Of a stretch of 64,000 nucleotides of DNA, positions 8,831 through 18,207 are shown piece after piece (the stretch's first letter is position 1; every line of letters begins with the position of its first letter). The DNA is taken from assembly GCA_001971685.1 (NCBI GenBank), contig CP019326.1:930001-994000 (forward strand), read 5' to 3'. Under the pieces are notes generated by a model. That model was not told the DNA's origin. It saw nothing but the letters and a program-made list of their open reading frames with translations, and searched no databases. Made by a program: the position numbers and the translations under genes. Source of the DNA: Halomonas sp. 1513 (lineage in GTDB: Bacteria; Pseudomonadota; Gammaproteobacteria; Pseudomonadales; Halomonadaceae).

Positions 8831-9679
<849 letters not shown>

Positions 9680-9690
9680 GGGAAGTCTCC

Positions 9691-10545
9691 TTAGCCCTGG
9701 GCGGTGCCGCGGGTCACGCGGTTGCCGATGTAGGCGACCATACGGTCGAGGAAGAAGCCGACGATGCCGACATAGACCAGCGCCAGCACGATGTCGCTGA
9801 TCATCGAGGCGTTCCAGGCATCCCAGATGAAGAAGCCGATGCCCACGCCGCCGATCAGCATCTCGGCGGCGACGATGGCCAGCCACGACAGGCCCACGCC
9901 GATGCGCAGCCCGGAGAAGATGTAGGGCGCGGCGGCCGGCAGCATGATGCGGGTGAAGTACTCCAGGCCATTGAGGCGCAGTACCCGCGCCACGTTGCGG
10001 TAATCCTCGGGGATGTTTCGCACGCCGACCGAGGTGTTGATGATGATCGGCCAGATGGCGGTGATGAAGATCACGAAGATGGCCGAGGGAGTGCTGTCCT
10101 GGAAACCGGCCAGCGAGATCGGCAGCCAGGCCAGCGGCGGGACGGTGCGCAGCACCTGGAAGACCGGGTCGAGCCCGCGCATGGCCCAGGTGGACTGGCC
10201 GACCAGCACGCCGAGGCTGATGCCGGCCACGACGGCCAGCGAGTAGCCGTAGGCGACTCGCTCGAGGCTGGCCAGTATCTGCCAGCCCATGCCCTTGTCG
10301 TTGCCGCCGTAGTCGTAGAAGGGGTCGACGATCAGCTCCCAGGTGTCGCTGATCACCTGGGAGGGAGGCGGCAGCGCTGCGCCAGGCGAGGAGCAGAGGA
10401 TCTCCCAGATTGCCCCGAGCACGGCGAGGATGATCACCGGTGGCAGAACATTGTGGATCAAGGTGTCGCGAAGGCGGTGAAGGTTGGCCGACCAGCCGCC
10501 CATCAGCGGCTGGTCAGTGCTGTCAGCGCTGGATGAAACGCTCAT
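9691..10545 (-). CDS. nrtB: Nitrate-type ABC transporter permease
   Basis: A 284-residue inner-membrane protein with about six transmembrane helices and the EAA loop typical of binding-protein-dependent permeases, near VARVLRLNGLEYFTRIMLPAA. Its best family fit is NrtB/CmpB. AGGAGA precedes the ATG. It is the middle gene of nrtA-nrtB-nrtD and should form the membrane pore that receives substrate from the NrtA-like protein. Confidence 0.85.
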   Translation of the reverse strand: MSVSSSADSTDQPLMGGWSANLHRLRDTLIHNVLPPVIILAVLGAIWEILCSSPGAALPPPSQVISDTWELIVDPFYDYGGNDKGMGWQILASLERVAYGYSLAVVAGISLGVLVGQSTWAMRGLDPVFQVLRTVPPLAWLPISLAGFQDSTPSAIFVIFITAIWPIIINTSVGVRNIPEDYRNVARVLRLNGLEYFTRIMLPAAAPYIFSGLRIGVGLSWLAIVAAEMLIGGVGIGFFIWDAWNASMISDIVLALVYVGIVGFFLDRMVAYIGNRVTRGTAQG

Positions 10546-10585: not shown

Positions 10586-11890
10586 TCAGGCCAGGCGCTT
10601 GATCTCGAGGCTATCGAGATAGGCCTGGGGATCCTCGGGATCGAATGTCTTGCCGTCGAAGAAGGTCTCGACGCCGCGGGATGTCGAGTCGGGAATGTCG
10701 CTTGATGCCACGCCGAGTCGTTCGGCGGCCTGGCGCCATAGGTCCTCGCGATTGACGCGTTCGATCAGGGCGGCGCTATCGAGATCCTGCGGCAGGTAGC
10801 CCCAGCGCTGATTCTCGGTCAGGAACCACAGGTCGTGGCTCTTGAAGGGGTAAGAGGCGTGACGGTCCCAGTAGCGCATCATCTGCGGATGGTTCTCGAC
10901 GACGCGGCCCGTACCGTAGTCGAAGTTGCCCTGGATACGGTCGATAAGGTCGTCATAGGGCGCATGAATCCAGCGGCGACGTGAGCAGATCTGTGCCATC
11001 TCTTCATGGTTAGCCGGGTCCTCACACCACATCTGTGCCTCCATGATCGCCATCAACAGAGCCTGGGTAGCGTTGGGGTTTTCCTCCACGTAATCACTGC
11101 GCATGGCGAAGGCTTTTTCCGGGTGGTCGTTCCACAGTTCACCGGTGGTATTGGCGGTATAGCCGATGCCTTGGTTGACCAGCTGATGGTTCCAGGGCTC
11201 GCAGACACAGAAGGTATCCATGCTGCCAACGCGCATATTGGCGACCATCTGGGCGGGAGGAATGGTGATGGTCGAGACGTCGCGGTTGGGGTCGATGCCG
11301 CCCGCCGCCATCCAGTAGCGAATCCACATATCGTGGGTACCGCCAGGGAAGGTCATGGCGGCTGTCGCCTCGTCGCCACCGGCGCGCTTCTCGGCCAGCG
11401 CCTGGCCGAACTCACGGGTATCGAGCTGCACCTCCAGGTCGGCGTAGTCGCGGCCCACCGAGATGCATTGGCCGTTGAGGTTGAGGCGGGCCAGGATGCT
11501 CATCGGTACCGGCTGGTTATTGGGCGTGACGGCGCCGGAGCTGATCAGATAGGGCATCGGCGTGAGGATGTGTGCTCCGTCGATGCCGTTGCGCTGCGAG
11601 CCGAGCACCAGGTTATCGCGGGTGGTGCCCCAGGAGGACTGCTTGAGCACCTCGACATCGGTCATGCCGTGCTTGGCGAAGAAGCCCTTTTCATCGGCGA
11701 CGAACAGCGGGGCGGCATCGGTCAGGGCGATAAAGCCAAGCTTGGCCGCGGTGGTTTCCGGCTTGCCGTCGGCGAAGGCCCAGCTAACGGGTAGGCTGCT
11801 GAGCAGCGCCGAGCCGCCGACCAGGGTGGCGGAGTTCTTCAGAAAGCGACGACGCTGAGGGGAGTAGCCCTTGAATCTGTTGTTGTTCAT
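10586..11890 (-). CDS. nrtA: Nitrate-binding protein, Tat-exported (NrtA-like)
   Basis: A 434-residue solute-binding protein of the NrtA/CmpA family. It begins with a twin-arginine signal (RRRFLK, then a hydrophobic stretch ending near SWAFAD), so it is probably exported folded by Tat. The length and the motifs around LGFIALTDAAPLFVADEKGFF fit nitrate/bicarbonate binding proteins. The ATG at 11890 (GGAG seven bases upstream) is preferred to one 16 codons earlier, which would fall inside the leader terminator. First gene of the nrtABD operon, controlled by the sigma54-type promoter and antitermination leader described separately. Confidence 0.87.
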   Translation of the reverse strand: MNNNRFKGYSPQRRRFLKNSATLVGGSALLSSLPVSWAFADGKPETTAAKLGFIALTDAAPLFVADEKGFFAKHGMTDVEVLKQSSWGTTRDNLVLGSQRNGIDGAHILTPMPYLISSGAVTPNNQPVPMSILARLNLNGQCISVGRDYADLEVQLDTREFGQALAEKRAGGDEATAAMTFPGGTHDMWIRYWMAAGGIDPNRDVSTITIPPAQMVANMRVGSMDTFCVCEPWNHQLVNQGIGYTANTTGELWNDHPEKAFAMRSDYVEENPNATQALLMAIMEAQMWCEDPANHEEMAQICSRRRWIHAPYDDLIDRIQGNFDYGTGRVVENHPQMMRYWDRHASYPFKSHDLWFLTENQRWGYLPQDLDSAALIERVNREDLWRQAAERLGVASSDIPDSTSRGVETFFDGKTFDPEDPQAYLDSLEIKRLA

Positions 11891-12018
11891 GCGATGGCTC
11901 CAAACAAAGAAACGGCGCCTGATATAAGCCCCACCCACACTGGGTGATTCTTAATCAGACGCCGTTGTCCGCTATTGAAAACTGCCTGGGAGCTGAACCG
12001 TCGTTGACTCAGCGTACG
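11891..12018 (-). ncRNA. nrtA leader RNA with ANTAR-type hairpins (NasR target)
   Basis: From the predicted start near 12018 the leader is about 128 nt. Hairpin P1 (12013-11992) has an 8-bp stem, two pairs being wobbles, closing hexaloop AACGAC. Hairpin P2 (11971-11956) has stem CGGAC/GTCTG closing hexaloop AACGGC. Both loops have A at position 1 and G at position 4, the signature of RNAs bound by ANTAR proteins. The P2 loop and 3' arm are also the 5' arm of the downstream terminator, so the two structures exclude each other. The adjacent gene encodes the NIT-ANTAR protein expected to bind here. Regulation by nitrate is inferred from the Klebsiella nasF paradigm. Confidence 0.75.
11901..11966 (-). 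terminator. Intrinsic terminator in the nrtA leader (attenuator)
   Basis: On the minus strand AACGGCGTCTGAT (from 11966) pairs with ATCAGGCGCCGTT (to 11911), with an inner CACCCA/TGGGTG hairpin and a following TTTCTTTGTTT tract ending at 11901. It stops 10 bases before the nrtA start codon, so it is an attenuator rather than an operon end. Confidence 0.8.
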
Positions 12019-12028
12019 CCAATAGCGT

Positions 12029-12044
12029 TGCAGTTAGGGTGCCA
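12029..12044 (-). promoter_or_regulatory. Sigma54-type -24/-12 promoter of nrtA
   Basis: Minus-strand TGGCACCCTAACTGCA matches the consensus TGGCAC-N5-TTGCA at 15 of the relevant bases except one, with exactly 10 bases between the GG and GC. It would start transcription about 5 bases before hairpin P1, giving a leader close to the length known for nasF of Klebsiella. This implies NtrC/nitrogen control. Confidence 0.7.
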
Positions 12045-12132
12045 TTTTCACATTTAGTCGAGGCGATGCTTTCGTTAACAATGACTTGCGTATATCGGTG
12101 GCGGTGAGCCGAAACCAGGCGTGGCGTTGTCT

Positions 12133-12160
12133 TGGTGCGCGGGCATGATGCAGCGCACCA
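12133..12160. terminator. Inverted repeat between nasR and nrtA promoter
   Basis: TGGTGCGC at 12133-12140 and GCGCACCA at 12153-12160 form a perfect 8-bp repeat around 12 nt, just beyond the nasR stop. It may terminate nasR. The GCACCA half-sites and the position 115-142 bases upstream of the nrtA start also suggest an NtrC enhancer, though the half-site orientation is opposite to the usual one. Confidence 0.4.
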
Positions 12161-12169
12161 CTTGCGACC

Positions 12170-13441
12170 TCAGGCCTGGCGCTTTTGTAGAATATTGGCC
12201 AGGTCGATGATGGTTCTTGCCATCTCGGCCATGCTCTTGCTCTGGTCCATGGACGCCTTGCGCAGGAAGCGATAGGCCTGGTCTTCGCTCATCTGCTGAT
12301 GCTCCATGATCATGCCCTTGGCACGCTCTATCAGCTTGCGCTCGCGCAGCATTTCACGAGTATTTTCCAGCTCATCGCTGATATGTTGCAGTCGCGCATT
12401 CTGAGACTGCATAAGGTCGATCAGCGCGCGGTTAAGCCGTGATTCGACCGCGTTGGCGGTCAACTGGCCGAGTTCGTGGGTCGCCTCCTGTGGAAACAGG
12501 TCGACCAGCTGTTCGCAGGTAGAGCACTGTTCGATGGCATCGTGCAGTGAGGCATCCAACTGCTGCTGGTCGTTGATGTCGGCCTGGGCCTGCTCGATCT
12601 TGCGGTGGCAAAGCTGGGAAAGCTCGGCCGTCAATTGCGCTTCGACCTGCTGCATGGCGTCGATGCGTGCGGTAGTGAGTTCATACCAGGTTTCGCCAAG
12701 CGCGTGATTCAGCTGGGCTGCGTGATCGCTGCAGGCCTGCTTGCGTAGCTGCTGGATTCCATCCTGACGGCGCGGGGCGTGCTGCTGCTGCCAGTGCTCG
12801 CGTGCAGCATCGCTGGCGAACTCACAGAAGGTATCGAAACAGCGCTGCTGGGCGTCGATCAACTGCAAAAGTAGCTGGCGATGGGCGGCGTCGAACTCGC
12901 CGGCGGTGAAGCCGATAGCGCCGCAGGCGCGTTCCTGACCGGCCAGCTCCTTGCCCTGCATGAAGTGGAAAATCGCCACCAGCGAGTGGGTCACGTCGGG
13001 ATCGTCGGCGGTGTCGGCAGCGTCGAAGACCACCGCCAATAGCCCGCCGATCAGCCGATTGTAGGTGCGGGTAGCGGCATCGGCACTGATCGCCAGTGAC
13101 TCGATCTCCCTACGCAGCGTGGGCAGGGCGTCGAGAGCAGCCCACACGCAGGCGATGCGCTTGAGCAGTCGCGCATTGCTCGCGGCCTGCTGCGGAAGGT
13201 CATCGAGACGCTCGCGTATCGCCTGCTCGCGCTTGAGGCTGTCGCTGACACGCTCCAGCCGTCGTGCGCTAAAGCGCTGGCCGCGGGAGGTGAGGTAGAT
13301 GTTCGAGGCGCCACGCTCTTTTTGCAGCGCATGCACGAAGCGGCTGATATCGCCGACCAGTTCGCAGGTGGCGGCGAGCCGCTCGAGGTTGCCTATTTCG
13401 CTTCGCTTGGCGGCCTGCAGTAGACGGTGGGTGGGGGTCAT
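12170..13441 (-). CDS. nasR: Nitrate-sensing antiterminator, NIT plus ANTAR domains
   Basis: The 423-residue protein has a long helical N-terminal NIT domain with the conserved run ISRFVHALQKERGASNIYL and later arginines that bind nitrate or nitrite. A C-terminal ANTAR RNA-binding domain (about 360-420, LIERAKGMIMEHQQMSEDQA then YRFLRKASM) follows. This is the architecture of Klebsiella NasR, which on sensing nitrate binds leader RNA and prevents termination. GAGGAGG precedes the ATG. Its predicted target, the nrtA leader, lies immediately downstream. No nitrate or nitrite reductase gene is in the window, so the rest of the regulon is elsewhere. Confidence 0.92.
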   Translation of the reverse strand: MTPTHRLLQAAKRSEIGNLERLAATCELVGDISRFVHALQKERGASNIYLTSRGQRFSARRLERVSDSLKREQAIRERLDDLPQQAASNARLLKRIACVWAALDALPTLRREIESLAISADAATRTYNRLIGGLLAVVFDAADTADDPDVTHSLVAIFHFMQGKELAGQERACGAIGFTAGEFDAAHRQLLLQLIDAQQRCFDTFCEFASDAAREHWQQQHAPRRQDGIQQLRKQACSDHAAQLNHALGETWYELTTARIDAMQQVEAQLTAELSQLCHRKIEQAQADINDQQQLDASLHDAIEQCSTCEQLVDLFPQEATHELGQLTANAVESRLNRALIDLMQSQNARLQHISDELENTREMLRERKLIERAKGMIMEHQQMSEDQAYRFLRKASMDQSKSMAEMARTIIDLANILQKRQA

Positions 13442-13550: not shown

Positions 13551-14903
13551 TCAGCGCAGCGAGAGTGCACCGGCGCCGGTCTCGTCGCCCACGGCATCTT
13601 GATAGGCGGCGGCCTCTTCGGCCTCGGTCTCCGGAGAGAAGCGTACCAGCAGGGCACAGGAGGCCAGTACCAGCACGGTCAGGCCAAGATAGAACAGCCC
13701 TTGCTGGTAGGTGATGGCTTCCGAACGGAACAGAAAGGCTGCGGCCACGGCGCCGACGTTGCCGCCGGCGCCGACGATGCCGGCCACCGCGCCCAGCGCC
13801 TTCTTGTTGATAAAGGGCACCACGCCGTAGGTGGCGCCTTCGGCCATCTGCACGAACAGGCTGAATACCAGCATGATGCCGATGGCGTAGGAGAGCACGT
13901 GCATCTGCGAGAAAGCGACCAGGGCGATGCCCTCGCACACCAGGGCGATGAACAGCCAGCGTACGCGGCCCTTGAGGCCACCATGCTTGGCGAACAGATC
14001 CGAGAAGATACCGCCCATGGTGCGGGCGAACACGTTCATCAGGCCAAACAGCCCGGCAATCATGCCGGCGGTGGCCAAGGTCAGATCGAAGTGATCGAAG
14101 AAATAGATGGCGGCGATATTGTTGATGGTCAATTCGACGCCGAAGCAGATGGCGTAGACCACGAACAGTGCCCAGACGCGGATGTCCTTGGCGGCTGCCA
14201 GAAAGGTCTGGCCGGCGCCGCTGTCGCCGTCTGCCTGGGGAAGCTCGCCGCGGGCGCGCAGGTCCTCGAAGTTGCCGTTGGGTGCATCCTGGGTAAACCG
14301 GTAGTAGCAGATGCCGGTAATGAACAGCACCACGCCGGGCACGACCATGGCCAGGCGCCAGCCGAGGGTCTCGCTGACGCCGAGCATCAGGATGCCGGAG
14401 AAGATCAGCGGCATCAGGATCTGGGTGGTGCCACCGCCCAGGTTACCCCAGCCTGCCGAGGTGGCGTTGGCGGTGCCGACCACGTTGGGGGCGAACATCA
14501 TGGTGGTGTGGTACTGAGTAATCACGAAGGAGGCGCCAATCGCACCGATCGCCAGGCGGGCCAGCAGGAAGGTTTCGAAACTGTTGGCGAAGCCGATGCC
14601 CATCACCGGGATCGAACCGAAGATCAGCAGCCCTGAGTAGGCCTTGCGCGGGCCGATGCGGTCGCACAGCACGCCGATCAGCAGGCGCACGACCACGGTG
14701 ATCGCGACAGAGGCGATGATGGTGTTGCCGATCTGGGTCTGGGTAAGGTTGAGGTCTTCGCGTACCACCGCCATCAGTGGAGCGATGCCGAACCAGCCGA
14801 AGAAACAGATATGAAAGGCGAACCACGAGAAGTGGAAGGCTCGCATTTGCGGAGTGCTGAAGTTCAACAGGCGAATCTTGTTGGCCTTGTTGCGAATTTC
14901 CAT
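13551..14903 (-). CDS. Nitrate/nitrite MFS transporter (NarK/NasA type)
   Basis: A 450-residue, 12-helix permease of the nitrate/nitrite porter family. The nitrate signature is visible in the region around FVITQYHTTMMFAPNVVG and SAGWGNLGGGTTQ, and the substrate-binding arginine environment in helix 2 is present (VVVRLLIGVLCDRIGPRKAY). Beside nasR and nrtABD it most likely imports nitrate for assimilation, giving the cell both an ABC and an MFS route. ATG at 14903 has GAGG upstream. A sigma54-like promoter and a hexaloop hairpin precede it. Confidence 0.88.
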   Translation of the reverse strand: MEIRNKANKIRLLNFSTPQMRAFHFSWFAFHICFFGWFGIAPLMAVVREDLNLTQTQIGNTIIASVAITVVVRLLIGVLCDRIGPRKAYSGLLIFGSIPVMGIGFANSFETFLLARLAIGAIGASFVITQYHTTMMFAPNVVGTANATSAGWGNLGGGTTQILMPLIFSGILMLGVSETLGWRLAMVVPGVVLFITGICYYRFTQDAPNGNFEDLRARGELPQADGDSGAGQTFLAAAKDIRVWALFVVYAICFGVELTINNIAAIYFFDHFDLTLATAGMIAGLFGLMNVFARTMGGIFSDLFAKHGGLKGRVRWLFIALVCEGIALVAFSQMHVLSYAIGIMLVFSLFVQMAEGATYGVVPFINKKALGAVAGIVGAGGNVGAVAAAFLFRSEAITYQQGLFYLGLTVLVLASCALLVRFSPETEAEEAAAYQDAVGDETGAGALSLR

Positions 14904-15016
14904 GGGACTAACCTCGTCAAGTGACGGTCGAACTCACGATCAGGGCCTTCGCCGTTGAAGGTCAGGTCGACGCACTCGTACTCGGTCTGAGCCTGGTCCA
15001 CGTCAATATCTGACAT
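14864..15016 (-). CDS. Unrecognised 50-codon reading frame overlapping the narK start
   Basis: An ATG at 15016 opens an acidic 50-residue frame (begins MSDIDVDQAQTEYECVDLTF) that runs through the whole narK leader and overlaps its first 40 bases in another frame. The third-base composition looks coding, but there is no good ribosome binding site. The best sigma54-like promoter would start transcription just after this ATG. It may be a remnant of a longer gene, a leader peptide or chance. Confidence 0.25.
   Translation of the reverse strand: MSDIDVDQAQTEYECVDLTFNGEGPDREFDRHLTRLVPWKFATRPTRFAC
14946..14961 (-). promoter_or_regulatory. Hexaloop hairpin in the narK leader (possible ANTAR site)
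   Basis: Minus-strand CCTTC-AACGGC-GAAGG is a perfect 5-bp stem with the same hexaloop sequence as P2 of the nrtA leader, with A1 and G4. No second hexaloop hairpin and no T-tract terminator were found in this leader, so NasR control of narK is only a suggestion. Confidence 0.35.
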
Positions 15017-16772: not shown

Positions 16773-16843
16773 AAACGACGACGCCCCGCAGGTGAACTGC
16801 ACCCCGAAAGTTGGACATCCAACCCAACCTTCGGGGTGTTTCT

Positions 16844-17380
16844 ATGAGGAATCGATATAGCGAGCAGTTCAAGTGGCAGGTGGTGCAGCAATGTCTGCGC
16901 GTGGGGGGCAGCATAAAGGAGGTAGCCCGCCAGCTTGAGCTGGATTATTCCATGGTCCGGCGATGGCTGGAGCATTACCGGCAGCATGGTCCTTCAGGGT
17001 TACGCCAGACGCGCCACCACTACGGCTCATCGTTCAAGCGTGAGGTGCTGGAAAGGATGTGGCGCGACGGCTTGTCGATCCGTCAGGCCGAGGCCCTGTT
17101 TGATATCCGTGCCGCTGGCGCTATTGGCAGATGGGAACGCCAATATCATAGTGGGGGTCTGACCGCGTTAGCCCCAAAGCGTAAGGGACGCCGCCCCATG
17201 CCCCAGAAGCCCCCATCACCGCCCAAGCCTTGCGCCGATGAGGAGCGCTCCCATGAGGAACTGCTCGAGGAACTGGCCTATCTACGGGCAGAGAATGCCT
17301 ACTTAAAAAAGCTCGATGCCTTGATCCAGGAAAAGCGGGCGACGACGCGGGGCAAAAAGCCCAAGCCGTCCAAGGATTAA
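16844..17380 (+). CDS. IS3-family transposase OrfA (helix-turn-helix subunit)
   Basis: A 178-residue protein with two helix-turn-helix modules (SIKEVARQLELDYSMVRRWL and LSIRQAEALFDI) and a C-terminal leucine-zipper-like segment ELLEELAYLRAENAYLKKL. It binds the element ends. ATG 16844 follows the left terminal repeat. The codons TTA AAA AAG at 17303-17311 contain the A-AAA-AAG slippery heptamer used for -1 frameshifting into orfB. Confidence 0.9.
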   Translation: MRNRYSEQFKWQVVQQCLRVGGSIKEVARQLELDYSMVRRWLEHYRQHGPSGLRQTRHHYGSSFKREVLERMWRDGLSIRQAEALFDIRAAGAIGRWERQYHSGGLTALAPKRKGRRPMPQKPPSPPKPCADEERSHEELLEELAYLRAENAYLKKLDALIQEKRATTRGKKPKPSKD

Positions 17381-18207
17381 GGCATGAGCACTCACTGGCG
17401 CTGCTGCTGCGTGCGGCCGAGCTGCCGCGCAGCACGTTCTACTACCAGATCAAGGCCTTGGACGCTGACGATCGGTACGCGGCTCTGAAGGCGCGTATCC
17501 GGGCGATCTACGACCGCCACAAAGGGCGCTATGGCTACCGTCGCATCACCTCCGTTCTGCGGCAGGCAGGTGAGGCGATCAACCACAAGACCGTCCAGCG
17601 GTTGATGCAACAGCTAGGCTTGAAGTCCCTGGTTCGCCCTAAGCGGTATCGTGCCTACCGAGGCGCGGAAGGCTACGCCGCCCCGAATACGTTGCAGCGT
17701 CGGTTTCAGGCTCAGCGTCCCCATCAACGGTGGGTGACAGACATCACCGAATTCAAGGTCAATGGCCAGAAGCTCTACCTGTCACCGGTCATGGATCTAT
17801 ATAACGGAGAGATCATTGCCTTCCAGACAGGGCCACGCCCGGTGTTCGACCTGGTGAAGGGTATGCTCAAGAAAGCCTTTAGCAGGCTGATCGCGGGGGA
17901 CCGGCCGCTGCTCCACTCGGATCAGGGCTGGCATTATCGCCACCCCAGATATCGCCGCCTAGTGGTGGAGAAGCGGATACTCCGTAGCATGTCACGGAAA
18001 GGGAACTGTCTGGACAATGCTGCGATGGAGAGCTTCTTCGGCACCCTGAAGGCTGAATACTTCCATTTGAACCGGTTCGACACCATAGAGCAGCTGCAGC
18101 AAGGCCTCGACCGTTACATCCATTACTACAACCACGAGCGTATCAAGATGAAATTAAAAGGCCTGAGCCCTGTGCAGTACAGGACTCAGGCCTTGAGCGC
18201 CGACTGA
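17305..18207 (+). CDS. IS3-family transposase OrfB, made by -1 frameshift
   Basis: The -1 frame is open from the slippery site at 17305 to 18207. It includes the N-terminal LLLRAAELPRSTFYYQIK segment typical of OrfB, so a fused OrfAB product is expected; an ATG-only start at 17458 would lose this part. The integrase core carries the DDE triad: D in VTDITEF, D in LLHSDQGWHY and E in AAMESFFGTLKAE. It catalyses strand transfer of this element. Confidence 0.88.
   Translation, partial: KKARCLDPGKAGDDAGQKAQAVQGLRHEHSLALLLRAAELPRSTFYYQIKALDADDRYAALKARIRAIYDRHKGRYGYRRITSVLRQAGEAINHKTVQRLMQQLGLKSLVRPKRYRAYRGAEGYAAPNTLQRRFQAQRPHQRWVTDITEFKVNGQKLYLSPVMDLYNGEIIAFQTGPRPVFDLVKGMLKKAFSRLIAGDRPLLHSDQGWHYRHPRYRRLVVEKRILRSMSRKGNCLDNAAMESFFGTLKAEYFHLNRFDTIEQLQQGLDRYIHYYNHERIKMKLKGLSPVQYRTQALSAD

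Follow-up and report, generated by a model that had tools for sequence, protein, structure and literature searches.

The nasFED genes of Klebsiella, with nasF in first place, encode an NrtABD-type importer. For the nasF leader of K. oxytoca, the relevant passages of PMC3369936 put forward an ANTAR antitermination model with NasR, and what is said of nasF in K. oxytoca and K. pneumoniae in parts of PMC3369936, PMC5424462, PMC3795266 and PMC8443478 resembles in several respects the leader discussed here, which lies in a 64,000-nucleotide stretch of the Halomonas sp. 1513 genome (hereafter, the window). Shared between the two are a NIT–ANTAR regulator, hexaloops that begin with A and have G in fourth place (A1/G4), a second hairpin (P2) that overlaps the terminator, Ntr-controlled expression (for the Halomonas leader, predicted) and an operon whose first gene serves transport – a likeness to the published descriptions of the Klebsiella leader. 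The sigma54/NtrC part of the Klebsiella Ntr system, as far as it is outlined in PMC5424462, also matches the model proposed below. The initial annotation had contrasted the two systems by placing the Klebsiella leader in front of nitrate reductase genes; this was wrong, as nasF, the first gene there, is itself a nitrate transport gene. Where they do differ is in their organisation: in Halomonas, nrtABD stands behind the leader, nasA and nirB form separate units with ANTAR leaders of their own, and a second ANTAR protein, NasT, is also present.

Two further systems invite comparison. The NalA leader of nirBD in Pseudomonas combines, according to part of PMC12830290, a sigma54/NtrC promoter with an ANTAR-controlled terminator, as is predicted for the nrtA leader, yet there the regulator is NasT and the operon is that of nitrite reductase, whereas here we find NasR and an importer. 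The Enterococcus eut leaders, which work with EutV, share the dual-hexaloop antiterminator but not its dimensions: EutV linkers measure 5–12 nt and lengthened ones lose induction (passages of PMC3369931 and PMC8934654), as against the 20 nt between the hairpins of the nrtA leader.

Among catalogued RNA families, Rfam RF03032 (narK RNA) comes close in layout, its consensus having a sigma54-like GGCaC..UUGC, an annotated hairpin with CAACGGCG at its top and a second with CGACAAAGACGUCG; by Rfam's rule, however, the leader is not a member, scoring 19.8 bits where 43.2 are required. The consensuses of RF03032 and RF00625 (P11, which we take to be NalA) both resemble a sigma54 −24/−12 promoter with an ANTAR dual hexaloop behind it; in RF03032, the annotation covers just the first hairpin. 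At the gathering threshold, Rfam gave no match in the window, and a permissive run returned sub-threshold matches only; those to RF03032 and RF00625 lie at 11956–12043 and 11914–12056 of the window and at L003:10954–11021 (L003 being the locus of the same genome that holds the nasA and nirB leaders). Neither narK RNA nor the narK motif nor RF03032 was mentioned in the open-access literature searched, nor was there, among the matches listed from it, a paper on this leader in Halomonas. ANTAR-target matches upstream of nitrate and nitrite transporters had already been listed by Ramesh et al. (part of PMC3369931), and the novelty that the initial annotation saw in nrtABD standing behind such a leader dissolves in the many named genomes in which the order nasR–leader–nrtABD recurs. 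The nrtA leader is a classical nitrate-assimilation control circuit, well preserved and of a known type; what is new in this analysis is the company it keeps, namely NasT and two further sigma54-plus-ANTAR leaders (nasA and nirB) whose hairpins lie closer together.

The leader spans positions 11902–12044 of the minus strand, in the intergenic region between nasR (12170–13441) and nrtA (10586–11890), and all the elements listed in the initial annotation are there, on that strand and in the order given. It opens with a sigma54-type −24/−12 promoter motif (TGGCACCCTAACTGCA, 12029–12044), which reads TGGCAC-N5-CTGCA and has 10 bases from GG to GC. Next comes hairpin P1 (11992–12013), in which the arms GCTGAGTC and GGTTCAGC form 8 bp, including two G–U pairs, around the loop AACGAC, and then P2, the candidate antiterminator (11956–11971), in which CGGAC and GTCTG form 5 bp around AACGGC; both loops have six bases, carry A1 and G4 and are closed by a C–G pair. 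Twenty nucleotides link the two hairpins, and 33 separate one loop from the other. The intrinsic terminator (11902–11966) is made up of a 5′ arm (11950–11966), an inner hairpin, a 3′ arm (11911–11926) and a U-tract (11902–11912). Its 5′ arm is composed of the P2 loop, the P2 3′ arm and ATTAAG, while the 3′ arm runs into TTTCTTTGTTT, followed directly by GGAGCC and, 5 bases further, by the ATG.

The mutual exclusivity of P2 and terminator, likewise proposed at the outset, follows on paper from this shared arm, and predicted folds agree with it. The terminator stretch (11903–11970) folds with −37.3 kcal/mol (z −7.4; none of 200 shuffles equally stable), compared with −5.5 kcal/mol for P2 alone. 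For the 115-nt leader, the predicted fold consists of P1 and the terminator (−46.7 kcal/mol, z −4.65), and in an 85-nt transcript without the terminator 3′ arm P1 and P2 both form (z −0.85). Taken singly, P1 and P2 are no more stable than their shuffles (z −0.3 and −1.0, respectively), so it is their combination, and its conservation, that carries the evidence. A scanner for the whole arrangement, run over the window in both directions with a minimum of 4 pairs in P1, found a single site; with a minimum of 5 pairs, it found none in 2.3 Mb, both strands counted, of letters permuted inside 300-nt blocks. The −24/−12 motif alone, one mismatch permitted, occurs three times in the window against 2.7 expected, which is chance level, so that its support comes from its position and conservation. 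Further upstream, two half-sites judged against the NtrC consensus, TGGTGCG (12154–12160) and CGCACCA (12133–12139), make up a putative NtrC enhancer (12133–12160, minus strand) approximately 90–117 bp upstream of the −24 GG; by eye, they are identical in all five genus members and similar in some other relatives. As they stand in everted order, we do no more than infer an NtrC enhancer here.

Downstream of the leader, all on the minus strand, lie genes for an NrtA/NasF-type nitrate-binding protein (10586–11890; 434 aa; Pfam NMT1_2, 356 bits), the N-terminus of which is twin-arginine-like by eye, an NrtB-type permease (9691–10545; NCBIfam TIGR01183 ntrB, 330.6 bits, over its cut-off) and an NrtD-type ATPase (8831–9700, with an approximate 5′ boundary; NCBIfam TIGR01184 ntrCD, 358.7 bits, over its cut-off). 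On the other side, the neighbouring gene (12170–13441, minus strand) is indeed nasR, its product containing a NIT sensor domain (Pfam, 172.7 bits) and an ANTAR domain (70.2 bits). Upstream of nasR, a narK-family gene encodes a nitrate/nitrite transporter (13551–14903, minus strand; TIGR00886, 316.3 bits against a cut-off of 311.7), as is also the case in the named Halomonas-group loci L094–L101 and L103. About 40 nt before narK there is a lone ANTAR-like hairpin, CCTTC and GAAGG around AACGGC (14946–14961, minus strand), for which the scan gave neither a P2 partner nor a terminator. Roughly 2 kb from narK, two adjacent transposase ORFs (16811–18207, plus strand; one with HTH_Tnp_1, the other with rve and HTH_21) are, judging from this domain pair, presumably of the IS3 type.

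NasR itself finds its best solved-structure match in 4akk, the nitrate regulatory protein NasR of K. oxytoca (E 1.9e-53), and its closest named records, with 86–91% identity, in Halomonas sp. ML-15, H. salipaludis, Franzmannia pantelleriensis and H. socia. In the alignment with 4akk, R340, K341 and K347 are unchanged and R stands in place of K345, given a 27-residue offset between the 4akk chain and the numbering of PMC7496416 that we deduced from the alignment; a K345R variant of NasR behaved like the wild type, according to the part of PMC7496416 concerned with it. The product of the adjacent nasR gene is the likely regulator of the leader, and adjacency and co-occurrence suggest that the two are cognate.

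The leader was found in all five genus genomes searched and, at the level of the family, in 10 of 11 genomes that have a close nrtA (73–100% identity; 151 genomes searched); in the exception, L044, P2 and the terminator are present and P1 is not recognisable. The arrangement also precedes nrtA in other Halomonadaceae and in Comamonadaceae. Among 31 named NasR loci, 26 hold nrtA too, with the leader in front of it in 21; a strict scan gave no leader in the other five, which are L106, L117 and a group of three (L116, L118 and L119) whose nrtABD and nasR genes converge. At a stricter scan setting, 36 of 70 loci retrieved via NasR had no match. In both of the g11 genomes that have a close nrtA, this gene and nasR are found on different contigs. 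As a separate observation, the nrtA leaders of L044, L053, L055 and L058, in whose genera NasR is divergent, have a P2-type hairpin (loop AACGGC or AAAGGC) and no P1 that obeys the A1/G4 hexaloop rule; the terminator is visible in the first three.

Both A1/G4 hexaloops, on whose conservation the initial annotation had staked its reading, are retained in the leaders of relatives, and the stems beneath them covary strongly. Across 19 aligned leaders (L110 was omitted because MAFFT misplaced its P1), 93.4% of cells are paired, a share that falls to 23–45% when the partner is slid along the alignment. Two-sided changes occupy 30 cells compared with 9.0 in shuffles, and the covariation score was reached by none of 500 shuffles, which ignore relatedness among the leaders. 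Compensatory change is two-sided at 7 of 12 pairs (5 of the 7 counted in P1, 2 of 5 in P2), and three P2 pairs are invariant. The motif GGC-N9-GC was seen in each of the 22 nrtA leaders inspected for it, a set that omits L115, several near-duplicates and L108, in whose leader no clear sigma54 motif was seen; P1 begins 12–21 nt after the −12 GC.

We consider it very probable, reading from sequence, that the leader is a transcription attenuator controlled by NasR. What the initial annotation proposed – sigma54 plus NasR/ANTAR control of nrtABD – is supported by what can be seen directly, namely the anatomy, the exclusivity on paper, the conservation, the covariation and the neighbouring NIT–ANTAR regulator gene, and draws nothing from the promoter motif taken alone; the start site, the binding of NtrC and NasR and the response to nitrate we infer. 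Under nitrogen limitation, phosphorylated NtrC and sigma54 RNA polymerase would initiate at about position 12018, and P1 would be the first structure to form in the transcribed leader. Without nitrate or nitrite, the terminator would then form and transcription would end ahead of nrtA. With nitrate, the NIT domain of NasR would release the ANTAR domains, which would bind the hexaloops of P1 and P2; with P2 held, the terminator 5′ arm would be sequestered and the polymerase would continue into nrtABD. That P1 and P2 are bound at the same time is not to be presumed, since a later structural study of EutV argues for a dimer that touches the hexaloops one after another (PMC8934654). The combination of a starvation promoter and a nitrate-opened terminator would make the switch a logical AND gate, open when nitrogen is scarce and nitrate is present.

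Speaking against NasR as the regulator is the fact that the genome encodes a second ANTAR protein: NasT (REC plus ANTAR), which together with NasS is encoded about 18 kb away. The same attenuator might then be opened by NasT, freed from NasS by nitrate, either alone or along with NasR, as both ANTAR proteins should recognise the same A1/G4 hexaloops. We find this unlikely, though worth keeping in view. Each of the 11 genomes of the family that have a close nrtA encodes NasR, and three of them (G069, G120 and G054) gave no full-length NasT match; nasR, moreover, adjoins the leader, and the 33-nt spacing of its loops is typical of most NasR-only genomes of the family and not of most NasT leaders, with exceptions on both sides. 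A section of PMC8014003 notes that some Halomonas have both NasR and NasST, which it regards as possible dual regulation, and that elsewhere the two almost exclude each other.

A small-RNA role for the terminated leader, as a stable trans-acting molecule, is suggested by the fact that Rfam lists P11, a related leader, among its sRNAs and by a weak P11 match that overlaps the nrtA leader, but with 13.9 bits against a threshold of 70 this is very improbable. Barely credible is the view that the terminator merely closes the nasR transcript, the nrtA promoter being unrelated and the hairpins incidental: the structure does lie between co-directional nasR and nrtA, but both hairpins covary, the sigma54 motif is conserved at a narrow distance, the leader precedes nrtA even where nasR is elsewhere (L039, L043), and the U-tract abuts the ribosome-binding site, leaving scant room for another promoter.

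The initial annotation had also pointed to an additional pairing lying partly upstream of the start. It exists, as 8 bp between CAATAGCG (11970–11977) and CGCTATTG (12020–12027), read on the minus strand, and in four of the five genus members it reaches 9 bp with G–U, including one compensatory C–G/G–C change; it is broken in the fifth, L035, and the other 17 leaders showed no pairing of at least 9 bp. It spans the promoter melting region and the foot of P2, and as its 5′ arm sits 3–10 nt past the −12 GC, that arm is probably upstream of the start and outside the transcript. Restricted to the genus, broken in L035 and with a 5′ arm that is probably untranscribed, the pairing was rejected as a switch component and looks like a local oddity.

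Returning to the genome as a whole, the nasA gene and the nirB operon of the NasT cluster each have a dual hexaloop and a terminator, with good sigma54 motifs discernible by eye further upstream (TGGCATGGCGCTTGC and TGGCAGGCAGCTTGC). Both leaders lie beside nasS–nasT, approximately 5–7 kb before the window starts: that of nasA at about L003:10926–11060 (plus strand), with 14 nt from loop to loop, and that of nirB at about L003:8750–8890 (minus strand), with 17 nt and a linker of 6 nt. Judged by their sequence features, the genome carries at least three ANTAR leaders (nrtA, nasA and nirB). The idea that its nasA promoter had decayed was dropped, TGGCATGGCGCTTGCTT occurring further upstream. Two weaker own-genome matches of our model R1, scoring 21.2 bits at 1640576 and 18.7 bits at 2896612, have no P1–P2–terminator arrangement and were taken as chance; as R1 missed the nirB leader, it is an incomplete census.

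These spacings can be set against those of relatives. From 30 NasT loci of the family, a leader was recovered in 26. The loop-to-loop distance is at most 17 nt in 10 of 13 nasA leaders (exceptions L074, L075 and L076) and at most 23 nt in 15 of 18 nirB-side leaders, six of the latter assigned by position alone, with no gene assignable at the locus end. The nirB-side exceptions are L077, L079 and L081, the last of which has a hairpin with a GAAGAC loop (first base G) that would give about 23 nt. Among 30 nasA loci from 29 NasR-only genomes, 19 have a nirB-side leader, with at least 26 nt in 18 of them (L212 and L213 are weak) and either 20 or 49 nt in the ambiguous L195; no leader was recovered in 11, and the sole nasA leader, in L201, has 14 nt. 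In non-family genomes, too, distances of 14–20 nt occur where the one ANTAR match is NasR, namely in L102, L104 (a nirB leader), L105 and L115.

Rows from NasR loci (31) and NasT loci (37) differ with a Mann–Whitney p of 3.3e-5, a value that ignores relatedness, includes probable mis-assignments (L119, L081 and one row each of L066, L115 and L121) and draws no row from 36 of 70 NasR loci and 23 of 59 NasT loci. A strict regulator code of spacing was rejected, being broken by the NasT-only L074, L075, L076, L077 and L079, with 31–36 nt, as well as by the NasR-only L201 and the non-family L102, L104, L105 and L115. What the sequences suggest, from few independent genera, is a tendency: the distance between the loops in Halomonadaceae goes with the regulator more than with the gene, though some leaders clearly depart from this. 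The nirB leader, with 17–23 nt in most NasT genomes and 26–50 nt in nearly all NasR-only genomes that have it, appears to switch its spacing with the regulator. The linker is 20–21 nt in the close Halomonadaceae nrtA leaders found, except for L043 (16 nt), which is notable as EutV, in the accounts cited in part above, fails with longer linkers. Whether bacteria with both NasR and NasT use hairpin spacing to help separate their regulons, NasR reading wide leaders (33 nt) and NasT close ones (14 and 17 nt), is a speculation to which we give little credence at present.

The nrtA leader offers a clean, conserved case in which a halophile is predicted to control a nitrate importer at two levels, by nitrogen starvation and by nitrate. 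With a pair of ANTAR regulators and no fewer than three leaders in one genome, the organism would be a natural system for the question of how ANTAR proteins that obey one loop rule choose their targets – a question made concrete by the intolerance of EutV for long linkers on the one hand and the 20-nt linker of NasR-linked leaders on the other. Should spacing indeed help to separate the two regulons, a nasR–leader–nrtABD cassette could enter a NasT genome and remain insulated there.
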